Shown in pieces: positions 5,145 through 12,349 of a stretch of 64,000 nt of DNA. The notes beneath the pieces were generated by a model. It had not been told where the DNA came from. It saw only the letters and a program-made list of their open reading frames with translations, and searched no databases. Source of the stretch: Micromonospora pattaloongensis (lineage in GTDB: Bacteria > Actinomycetota > Actinomycetes > Mycobacteriales > Micromonosporaceae); the NCBI RefSeq assembly GCF_900107255.1, contig NZ_FNPH01000003.1, positions 310,001-374,000 of the forward strand, read 5' to 3'. Numbering within the stretch: the stretch's first letter is position 1; each line of letters opens with the position of its first letter. A program made the position numbers and the translations under genes.

Positions 5145-5254
5145 TCAACCGAACGGCCAGTGCGGGAGAAATCATCGCCGCTGGGTGGTGTAGGTCACTG
5201 GTACGTTGGTAATTCGCTTTGTTCACCGCGTAACCCGCAATGAGGAGATCGTCT

Positions 5255-5755
5255 GTGTCCACGACTGACAACGGTGCCCCCACCACGTGGCTGTCCCAGG
5301 ACGCGTACGACCGGCTGCAGGCCGAGCTCAACGAGCTGATCGCCAACCGTCCGGCGATCGCCGCCGAAATCAACGCCCGCCGCGAGGAGGGCGACCTGCG
5401 GGAAAACGGTGGCTACCACGCCGCGCGCGAGGAGCAGGGCAAGCAGGAGGGGCGCATCCGCTACCTGCAGGAGTTCCTGCGCACCGCGCACGTGGGCGAG
5501 GCGCCCAAGGCGGACAAGGTCGTCCCCGGCACCGTCGTCACCATCTACTTCGACGACGACCCCGACGACACCGAGACCTTCCTGCTCGGGTCCCGCGAGA
5601 TCGCCGCGACGACCGACGTCACCGTCTACAGCCCCGAGTCGGCGCTGGGCAAGGCGATCCTCGGCGCGCGCACCGGCCAGACCGTCACCTACACCGCCCC
5701 CAGCGGCGCCGACATCAAGGTGACCGTGGTCAAGTTCGAGCCCTTCGGCGGCTGA
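5255..5755 (+). CDS. greA: Transcription elongation factor GreA
   Basis: Inserts into the secondary channel of RNA polymerase and stimulates cleavage of backtracked RNA. The 166-residue protein has the N-terminal coiled coil with the acidic tip EEGDLRENGGYHAARE, which carries the D and E residues that reach the active site, and a C-terminal FKBP-like domain (TVVTIYF, VYSPESALGKAILGA, GQTVTYTAPSG). The GTG at 5255 follows GAGGAGA by about 7 nt; an ATG slightly upstream (5240) overlaps that site and is not used. It is convergent with ilvA across four tandem 30 bp repeats. Length and motifs fit the family well. Confidence 0.96.
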   Translation: MSTTDNGAPTTWLSQDAYDRLQAELNELIANRPAIAAEINARREEGDLRENGGYHAAREEQGKQEGRIRYLQEFLRTAHVGEAPKADKVVPGTVVTIYFDDDPDDTETFLLGSREIAATTDVTVYSPESALGKAILGARTGQTVTYTAPSGADIKVTVVKFEPFGG

Positions 5756-5768
5756 GCCGTCGCATCGC

Positions 5769-5882
5769 GGTCCGGGCGGCCCGCGCTGTGCCCAGCTCGG
5801 TCCGGGCGGCCCGCGCTGTGCCCAGCTCGGTCCGGGCGGCCCGCGCTGTGCCCAGCTCGGTCCGGGCGGCCCGCGCTGTGCC
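5769..5882. repeat. Four tandem 30 bp repeats between greA and ilvA
   Basis: Copies begin at 5769, 5799, 5829 and 5859 with the unit GGTCCGGGCGGCCCGCGCTG plus ten more bases ending in CAGCTC; the last is truncated at 5882. Each copy contains the near-palindrome GGGCGGCCCGC. The array fills the convergent gap between the greA and ilvA stop codons and does not contain either stop. There are no variable spacers, so it is not a CRISPR array. Confidence 0.95.
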
Positions 5883-9875: not shown

Positions 9876-10349
9876 GTGAAGGCGTGCGTGTTCTGTGGCG
9901 TGGTGTCCGGGCAGCTCCCGGCGTTTCTGGTCGCCGACGAGCCCGCGGGGATGGCGTTCCTCGACATCCGGCCGGTGTTCCGCGGGCACGTGCTGGTTGT
10001 GCCCCGGTCGCACGTGCCGACCCTGACCGACCTGCCGGCGGAGTCGGTCGGGAGGGCCGAGTCGGTCGGGAGGGCCGAGTCGGTCGGGAGGGCCGAGTCG
10101 GTCGGGAGCTACTTCGGGCTGGTCCGGCGGTTGGCGGCCGCGGTCGAGACCGGTCTCGGGGCGGGCGGCACCTTCGTCGCGATGAACAACAAGGTGTCGC
10201 AGTCGGTGCCGCACCTGCACACCCACGTGGTGCCGCGGACCAAGGGCGACGGCCTGCGCGGCTTCTTCTGGCCGCGCCACCGGTACGAGTCCGACGACGA
10301 GGCCCGCTGCTACGCCGAGCGCATCGCCGCCGCCCTCGCCGCCCGGTAA
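9876..10349 (+). CDS. HIT family hydrolase with an internal ESVGRA repeat
   Basis: A histidine-triad nucleotide-binding protein; such enzymes hydrolyse nucleotide phosphoramidates or act on AppppA-type dinucleotides. The 157-residue protein has the zinc-type CVFC at 4-7, the segment [20 protein letters not shown], and the triad HLHTHVVPR. Between residues about 56 and 78 it contains four in-frame copies of ESVGR(A), encoded by an 18 bp tandem repeat, where HIT proteins normally have one short loop before the next helix. The GTG at 9876 follows TAGGCT by 6 nt with no ribosome site, so the message is probably leaderless. Catalytic residues are intact, so the expansion may be tolerated. Confidence 0.9.
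10041..10108. repeat. In-frame 18 bp tandem repeat in the HIT gene
   Basis: The unit GAGTCGGTCGGGAGGGCC occurs at 10041, 10059 and 10077, with a fourth partial copy at 10095. Each unit adds exactly six codons (ESVGRA), so the reading frame is kept. Copies are identical, which points to recent slippage. Confidence 0.95.
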
Positions 10350-11124: not shown

Positions 11125-11154
11125 TTGCCGCCGCCTCCCGCAGCTGGATAGTTT
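11125..11154 (+). promoter_or_regulatory. Candidate promoter of the rnz leader
   Basis: TTGCCG (11125-11130) and TAGTTT (11149-11154) are separated by 18 bp and lie just before the leader described next. The match to sigma-A boxes is moderate. Confidence 0.45.
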
Positions 11155-11186
11155 GGCCGTACACGGGAAGGGAGGTGGTCCAAGCT

Positions 11187-11225
11187 TTGTATAGCAATCG
11201 GACTCGTGAGGTGGCTGTCCGCTAG
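11187..11225 (+). CDS. 12-residue leader peptide (uORF)
   Basis: A TTG start at 11187 gives [12 protein letters not shown] and a TAG at 11223-11225. The ribosome site GGAGGTGG at 11171-11178, inside a longer match to the anti-Shine-Dalgarno, is eight bases from the start and is better than that of most full genes in the window. Its stop is followed at once by the inner stem of the leader. The short length and placement suggest that translation itself, not the peptide, is what matters. Confidence 0.5.
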
Positions 11226-11295
11226 CCGCTGTCCTTGACAGTTCCGTTCGTCGAGACCGTGTGGCAGCGGTGCGGCGAATCCACGACAGCCACCC

Positions 11296-11363
11296 GACCC
11301 CCGGGGTGCCGGCCCAGTCCAGCCGGCCCGCGTTCGCGCGGAAGCCCCGGGGGTCGCTTTTTC
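11296..11363 (+). terminator. Intrinsic terminator inside the rnz leader
   Basis: GACCCCCGGGG (11296-11306) pairs perfectly over 11 bp with CCCCGGGGGTC (11345-11355), followed by GCTTTTTC. The loop holds a further hairpin, GCCGGC-type, at about 11308-11328. A T-run after a GC stem is rare in this window, which makes this the clearest intrinsic terminator here. It ends 23 nt before the rnz start. Confidence 0.75.
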
Positions 11364-11386: not shown

Positions 11387-12349
11387 GTGTCTCTCCGCGA
11401 ACTCGTCGTGCTCGGCACGGCCAGCCAGGTACCGACCCGCCGCCGCAGCCACAACGGTTACCTCCTGCGCTGGGACAGTCAGGGCTCGGGCACCACGGCC
11501 GTCGAGGGGATCCTCTTCGACCCCGGCGAGGGCGCCCAGCGGCAGATGCTGCACGCCGGGCTCGCCGCCAGCGATCTGACCCGGATCTGCGTCACCCACT
11601 TCCACGGCGACCACTGCCTCGGCCTGCCCGGTGTGGTCCAGCGCCTGTCGCTCGACCGAGTCGGCCATCCGGTGACGGCGCACTACCCCGGCGGCGACGC
11701 CCGGTTCTTCGCCCGGCTGCGCCACGCCAGCCTGTTCCACGAGGCCGCCGAGCTGCGCGAGGAGCCCGTCGAACGCGACGGGCAACGGTTCGACCTCCCG
11801 GTCGGCACGCTGGAGGCGCGCCGGCTGCGCCACCCCGTCGAGACGTACGGCTATCGGCTCGTCGAACCGGACGGCCGCCGGATGATGCCCGAGGCGCTGG
11901 CCCGGCACGGTGTCCGGGGCCCCACCGTCGGCGAGCTGCTGCGCGCCGGCGAGGTGACCGTGGACGGGCGCCGGGTGCCGCTGGACGCGGTGAGCGAACC
12001 CCGCCCCGGACAGCGCTTCGCGTTCGTCATGGACACCGGGCTCTGCGACAACGTCTTCGCACTCGCCGAGGGAGCGGACCTGCTGGTGATCGAGGCGACG
12101 TTCCTGAACACCGAGGCCGCGCTCGCCGCCGAGGTCGGGCACCTGACCGCGGCCCAGGCCGCGCGGGTCGCGGCCGAGTCCGGGGTACGCCGGCTCGTGC
12201 TCACGCACTTCTCCCAGCGGTACGACGACCCGGCCCGGATCGCGGCGGAGGCGCGGGAACATTTCACCGGTGATCTCGTGGTGGCCGAGGACCTGACGCG
12301 CGTCCCGGTGCCGGCCCGCCGCACCGCCTCCAGCCCGGCACCGCACTAG
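11387..12349 (+). CDS. rnz: Ribonuclease Z (tRNA 3' endonuclease), MBL fold
   Basis: Zinc phosphodiesterase that trims the 3' trailer of tRNA precursors; needed for tRNAs whose CCA is not encoded, such as the tRNA-Leu in this window. The metallo-beta-lactamase motif [10 protein letters not shown] gives H71, H73, D75 and H76; later metal ligands are in [10 protein letters not shown] and LTHFSQRY. Length is 320 residues, in the family range. The GTG at 11387 is taken as the start because the region upstream is the structured leader with a terminator; the same frame stays open to 11261 but would have to be read through that terminator. The last codon overlaps the -10 box of the next gene. Confidence 0.9.

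Follow-up and report, generated by a model that had tools for sequence, protein, structure and literature searches.

The whiB7 leader is an attenuator composed of a uORF and a terminator, and SgrS/SgrT and SR1 are dual-function sRNAs. The RNA studied here, Ms_IGR-5, has a short ORF, stems and a terminator in common with attenuators of the whiB7 type but differs from them in that it has no fixed downstream gene, that no antiterminator was found and that, according to a passage of PMC8780764, it forms its own transcription unit in S. avermitilis. With SgrS/SgrT and SR1 it shares a small ORF within a stand-alone regulatory RNA; unlike in those RNAs, the ORF lies inside the structural core, the peptide is mostly unconserved and the complementarity of the ribosome site extends over the whole 16S rRNA tail. 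Extended pairing with the 16S tail, in some cases combined with non-canonical starts, is described for S. aureus Shine-Dalgarno sites in a passage of PMC13009471, where it is a feature of many mRNAs, whereas the 15-base form of Ms_IGR-5 occurred once in the genome from which our window (the whole stretch of 64,000 nucleotides analysed) was taken, and GGTCC-type matches at most once per relative. Ms1 RNA is, like Ms_IGR-5, widespread in actinobacteria and is set apart by its binding to the RNA polymerase core (PMC9130861).

The Ms_IGR-5 family itself (RF02471) is already known and is catalogued as an sRNA in Rfam. According to passages on it, the RNA is backed by RNA-seq data in S. lividans (PMC8079986), forms a separate sRNA transcription unit in S. 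avermitilis (PMC8780764) and attracts ribosome-profiling reads in M. abscessus and M. smegmatis (PMC4974804). It must be noted that the last passage reports footprints on most characterised ncRNAs, so the profiling support for translation of Ms_IGR-5 is weak. The passages of these three publications that deal with Ms_IGR-5 mention neither an ORF, a complement to the 16S tail, a pseudoknot nor members in Spirochaetota. In a literature search lying mostly outside subscription journals, and likewise outside the original M. smegmatis paper, we found no published function and no description of an ORF, 16S complement or pseudoknot. Judging by position, we would guess that it may be identical to scr4389 of S. 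coelicolor, which a passage of PMC8388888 mentions.

In the present work we describe the conserved mini-ORF, the 16S-tail complement, a predicted pseudoknot and the Spirochaetota members, which, on comparative evidence, are new for this family. Sequence comparison points to an RNA with its own promoter box and terminator, a 12-codon ORF (10-15 codons elsewhere), pairing with the 16S tail, a pseudoknot and an outer stem, P2. A plausible reading, if somewhat short of probable, is that Ms_IGR-5 is a free-standing RNA whose fold would be set by the ribosome translating its mini-ORF, with an output that would act in trans.

Identity and distribution of the RNA

In a cmscan search against Rfam, positions 11161-11362 of the window matched RF02471 ("Actinobacteria sRNA") over its full length (model 1-184 of 184) and scored 101.3 bits, where the gathering score is 45. 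They are therefore the named RNA, and the statement of the earlier note that no named RNA family fitted was wrong. The features of the locus, all on the forward strand, are the following, with their basis in brackets.

11149-11154, +, TAGTTT, predicted −10 box of a promoter belonging to the RNA itself (TANNNT in 208/231 loci)
11161-11362, +, RNA of Ms_IGR-5 (RF02471) with predicted 5' end ACAC (cmscan; A1 and C2 each in 78/80 aligned sequences)
11166-11181, +, 16-base complement, with G-U, of the 16S rRNA 3' tail, including the Shine-Dalgarno (duplex energy; column conservation; genome uniqueness)
11187-11225, +, 12-codon ORF with TTG start and TAG stop at 11223-11225 (start, stop and length conserved across loci)
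11200-11204, +, predicted pseudoknot strand 1, GGACU, codons 5-6 (covariation with 11316-11320)
11210-11219, +, outer stem P2, left strand, codons 8-11 (fold; covariation count)
11285-11294, +, outer stem P2, right strand, containing CCACC, which is anti-Shine-Dalgarno-like (fold; covariation count)
11295-11356, +, terminator stem, 11295-11306 with 11345-11356 (fold; sequence)
11308-11327, +, side hairpin of the terminator domain, loop 11314-11321 (fold; loop conservation)
11316-11320, +, predicted pseudoknot strand 2, AGUCC, in the side-hairpin loop (covariation with 11200-11204)
11358-11362, +, T-run TTTTT (sequence)
11387-12349, +, rnz-like gene (metallo-beta-lactamase fold), a neighbour only in this lineage (Pfam PF12706, PF00753)

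The ORF from TTG 11187 to TAG 11223-11225, the strong Shine-Dalgarno just 5' of it (GGGAGGTGGTCC), the outer and inner stems and the terminator with its T-run before rnz had already been noticed from the letters of this DNA, and all of them are present, the stems and the terminator in both sequence and fold. A lack of conservation of the ORF or the stems in relatives had been named as a finding that would count against the proposed switch; both were conserved, the ORF in two phyla.

The family model found RF02471 at E ≤0.001 in 57/296 genomes of a phylum sample, 26 of them above the cut-off, and in 192/296 genomes of a class sample, 191 above the cut-off, while 14 control genomes gave no match. 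Ms_IGR-5 is nearly always single-copy, with one copy in each of the listed genomes except G366, which has two. At E 0.001, the other 104 of the 296 class-sample genomes gave none. In 19 of the genomes lacking the family, searching with a looser pattern (demanding a TAG stop and blind to other stops or changed motifs) found nothing either, which suggests loss in some lineages.

A Spirochaetia MAG (L101) was among the named matches, with neighbours that, read by eye, we take to be metH-like and ahcY-like. In its phylum, 6 of 198 genomes matched RF02471, the MAG included, with 26.8-39.5 bits and none above the cut-off. The site AAGGAGGTG is common to all six, as is a 14- or 15-codon ORF that ends in EV[A/T]xx with its stop five codons past GAG; their G+C ranges from 0.28 to 0.50. 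By eye, the ACAC start was seen in 5/6, the pseudoknot strands were complementary in altered letters (e.g., UGACU/AGUCA), and a terminator-like stem came next, with a clear T-run in 4/6. As judged from these members, Ms_IGR-5 occurs in two phyla, at least Actinomycetota and Spirochaetota.

A phage origin was rejected: the exact pattern had no match in viral contigs and the window RNA had no blastn match in phages, as a query blind to distant forms. In a plasmid collection the single match, covering 32% of the query, was to a 2.66 Mb record of Nocardia farcinica.

For comparison across loci we collected 174, of which 54 came through the family model and at least 120 through a DNA pattern that required neither a start nor a stop codon; at least two duplicate pairs are among them (L022/L131 and L035/L165). 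Of 60 further loci, 57 were parsed and three unparsable ones (L188, L190, L199) were dropped. The alignment, A1, holds 80 sequences, with six of the 85 non-redundant ones omitted (L044, L185, L195, L198, L200, L203) and L101 added. Two of the omitted loci, L195 and L198, are short forms in which, by eye, a 10-codon TTG...TAG ORF lies in another frame and the terminator hairpin is simpler. Relative to the anchor at the ribosome site, a TANNNT box stood at −20, −19 or −18 in 208/231 loci (23 were without it), compared with 1-2/231 for control windows of seven positions; Ms_IGR-5 therefore has its own promoter, as predicted from this box.

The mini-ORF and its ribosome site

The consensus GARRGGAGGUGRUYC can pair, G-U included, up to almost the final base of the 16S tail, and in columns 7-21 of the 80 sequences this pairing was broken in 2 of 1200 cells. 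The predicted duplex with the 16S tail reaches −29.6 kcal/mol, compared with −8.7 for GGAGG alone. In the genome of the window, the 15-base pattern occurs nowhere but in Ms_IGR-5 itself; the pattern was present in 18/21 genomes searched, and GGTCC-type matches numbered no more than one in each. In relatives, the 27 matches of other type read GAAAGGAGGTGATCC, and the nine that were fetched were all 3' ends of 16S genes. Such a site may simply aid initiation at weak starts, by analogy with the extended S. aureus sites in the passage of PMC13009471. It could also make the RNA a decoy that mainly sequesters 30S subunits or 16S tails, the mini-ORF just supplying a start and a stop. The uniqueness of the complement in its own genome, the duplex energy and the profiling reads in two mycobacteria (PMC4974804, in part) are in line with a decoy, but it would not need a conserved start, stop, frame and pseudoknot, and we consider it unlikely.

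In all 174 listed loci the frame of a conserved GAG codon ended exactly five codons after GAG (TAG in 157, TGA in 11, TAA in 6), despite a distance from the ribosome site to GAG that varied between 26 and 38 bases, and in 167 of them a canonical start (ATG, GTG or TTG) stood in frame with no intervening stop. Among the 57 parsed further loci, the stop was at +5 in 55, and the start was canonical in 44 and near-cognate (CTG, ATT or ATC, at codon −9 or −10) in 11; the remaining two are L195 and L198, with their ORF in another frame. The 80-sequence alignment gave ORFs of 12-15 codons, with a canonical start in 69, a near-cognate one (CTG/ATC/ATT, a class for which there was no control) in 10 and none in one; the same test for canonical starts in the two other frames was positive in 11/160, against the 69/80 of the ORF frame. 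L022 and L131, apparently the same contig of 30041 bases, have an open frame and the stop at +5, and no canonical or near-cognate start was found in them. On these comparisons the mini-ORF is conserved as an ORF, and this holds in two phyla; the comparative evidence for a putative translated ORF in this stand-alone RNA is strong.

At peptide level, E8 and V9 were present in 53/53 of the 12-mers, a conservation explicable by RNA pairing because both residues sit where P2 begins. Codons 2-4 were not fixed, with serine as the commonest residue (18, 20 and 12 of 53, respectively) and with both codon types in use for serine at codon 3 (AGC 6, AGT 6, TCT 6); the 14-codon forms showed a recurring M-S-D/E-S start. 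The serine preference hints weakly at a role at peptide or codon level. A dual-function sRNA with the peptide as its active product would agree with the conserved ORF, the invariant E8 and V9, the serines in both codon types and the recurring start of the 14-codon forms. Nevertheless, E8 and V9 may be fixed by pairing at the start of the P2 strand, codons 2-4 are variable, and in L195 and L198, by eye, the motif falls in a different frame although a TTG...TAG ORF is retained. We regard an active peptide as improbable.

Fold, pseudoknot and proposed mechanism

The RNA folds with a predicted energy of −106 kcal/mol (z −4.2), and 0/200 shuffles were as good. In the 80 sequences, P2 was paired in 87.7% of the cells over the eight pairs counted, and four pairs were changed on both sides, in a count made jointly with the pseudoknot; three of its pairs had 22-24/80 cells unpaired, perhaps partly by misalignment. 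GGUG is invariant and CACC nearly so, which places a competition between the ribosome site and P2 beyond the reach of covariation. The terminator at 11295-11362 was not listed by a simple scan, which gave no terminator at all on this strand, probably because the side hairpin at 11308-11327 interrupts its stem. In the loop of this side hairpin, GUCC has an invariant U, and its G and both C were each present in at least 90% of the 80 rows.

This loop is the predicted partner of codons 5-6. In the 80-sequence alignment, GGACN of the ORF pairs with NGUCC of the terminator-domain loop, and the first four pairs were counted as GC 75, CG 3 and other 2; GC 73, GU 1 and other 6; AU 74 and other 6; and CG 76, UA 2 and UG 2. 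The last pair was the most varied (GC 23, CG 13, UA 11, UG 8, AU 5, GU 1, other 19). Six rows shifted by one base (GGACC) were scored as unpaired in this count. Pairing reached 91.8%, compared with 82.1% in shuffles, and covariation 0.226, compared with 0.067 in shuffles and at most 0.034 when slid; 0/500 shuffles reached either value. Weaker measures were matched by some shuffles (both-side-changed pairs by 13/500, further pair types by 8/500). A total of 42 cells were changed on both sides; kinship inflates these counts, yet rows that are only distantly related show changes repeatedly (CGAC/GUCG, GGAU/AUCC). The comparison argues for a covarying long-range pseudoknot that is absent from the Rfam structure. 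That structure has instead a 5' helix, whose GUCC/GGAC part showed 0 both-side-changed cells in the 80 sequences, against 42 for the pseudoknot, and we rejected this helix as the functional pairing. The inner pairs of the Rfam 5' hairpin, outside this count, appear by eye to be paired in many loci.

The mini-ORF thus overlaps two structures, the predicted pseudoknot at codons 5-6 and P2 at codons 8-11. In the 12-codon form the pseudoknot occupies ORF bases +14 to +18, which an initiating ribosome would reach approximately with its leading edge. We propose that the RNA would capture a 30S subunit through its 16S tail and that initiation would then bring the leading edge of the ribosome onto the pseudoknot. 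On terminating at the stop codon, the ribosome would cover the left strand of P2 and keep P2 open, and the ribosome-free RNA would stay closed; the presence of a ribosome would thus set the fold. Opening of P2 would free the right strand CAGYCACC, which is anti-Shine-Dalgarno-like, and we hold with moderate confidence that release of this strand would be the output. The freed strand and a conserved AAUCC motif might act on other RNAs, and the same strand could also re-close the RNA's own ribosome site. The fold would then report free, tail-intact and initiation-competent ribosomes.

Another account is an ordinary base-pairing sRNA for which translation of the ORF would control only stability. 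The free-standing transcript and its designation as an sRNA in Rfam accord with it, but in the 80-sequence alignment conservation is highest in the columns of the ribosome site, of the ORF end and of the pseudoknot loop, and we see little likelihood in this account. Returning to the fold set by the translating ribosome, it is possible, albeit somewhat less likely than that reading itself, that Ms_IGR-5 represents a functional class of its own that is new: a free-standing RNA of ancient origin, shared by at least Actinomycetota and Spirochaetota, that would serve as a ribosome test strip. It would dock on the complete 16S 3' tail, be read by way of its mini-ORF (mostly 12-15 codons) with often weak starts (UUG, CUG, AUU, AUC) and turn the presence of a ribosome into an RNA conformation by means of the pseudoknot and a translation-opened stem. 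If so, cells of two phyla would sense ribosomes directly by RNA. A catalogued sRNA carries a very strictly kept mini-ORF, a complete 16S-tail complement and an unrecorded, predicted pseudoknot; the start codon, the stop codon and the pseudoknot pairs are exact and cheap targets for mutation in laboratory actinobacteria.

Genomic neighbourhood and rnz

With the rnz protein of the window as query (E 1e-20), rnz was found downstream in 9/174 listed loci, 13 of the 174 having fewer than 1200 downstream bases. The nine are the window, one genome of its family, Catenuloplanes, four Micromonospora and two Salinispora, these three genera being, as we assume, Micromonosporaceae; the linkage is not universal even there, as no rnz match was obtained at Ms_IGR-5 in Catellatospora (L057, L125), Dactylosporangium (L113) or a Micromonosporaceae MAG (L063). 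Ten proteins, window rnz and MsrA among them, were annotated with Pfam, and between these and the rnz search of the 174 listed loci no conserved neighbour gene was seen. Upstream of Ms_IGR-5 there is an aminotransferase in Mycobacterium colombiense (with a convergent heme-binding THAP4-like gene downstream), an NhaA-type antiporter in Blastococcus and an Fpg/Nei-type glycosylase in Amycolatopsis (with DHODH further downstream). A histidine phosphatase lies downstream in Frankia and an M24 peptidase in Cellulomonas, and a Pseudonocardiales MAG has a divergent FUR regulator beside the RNA.

The earlier note had read the locus as an attenuator of rnz. The idea of a ribosome-coupled switch was a fair reading, because the end of the conserved ORF forms a stem strand in a terminator-bearing RNA, but its role as rnz control was not supported. 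P2 and the terminator are structurally compatible in the fold, and no terminator-excluding alternative was seen in folds with or without the 5' 66 bases blocked, by a method that cannot fold pseudoknots. In 8/9 rnz loci the 55-140 bases between the end of the terminator and rnz have no TANNNT box (L099 has one), and rnz may therefore need read-through or a promoter internal to the RNA; a secondary read-through into rnz in Micromonosporaceae is possible. Attenuation of rnz as the general function, in which a ribosome stalled in the ORF would allow read-through of the terminator, is very unlikely and was rejected: its ORF, stems and terminator are real and a separate rnz box is mostly missing, but rnz linkage is rare and neighbours differ elsewhere, P2 and the terminator are not mutually exclusive, codons 2-4 vary (with serine the commonest residue) and the fixed codons lie in paired strands, and in S. 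avermitilis, according to the passage of PMC8780764, the homologue forms an sRNA transcription unit of its own.

Two tandem repeats were also observed in the window, next to or within genes named by eye. At 5768-5882, right after a greA-like ORF (5240-5755), there is a perfect 30-base repeat in 3.8 copies. At 10037-10108, an 18-base repeat in four copies lies in frame within a HIT-like ORF (9876-10349) and encodes an AESVGR-type protein repeat.
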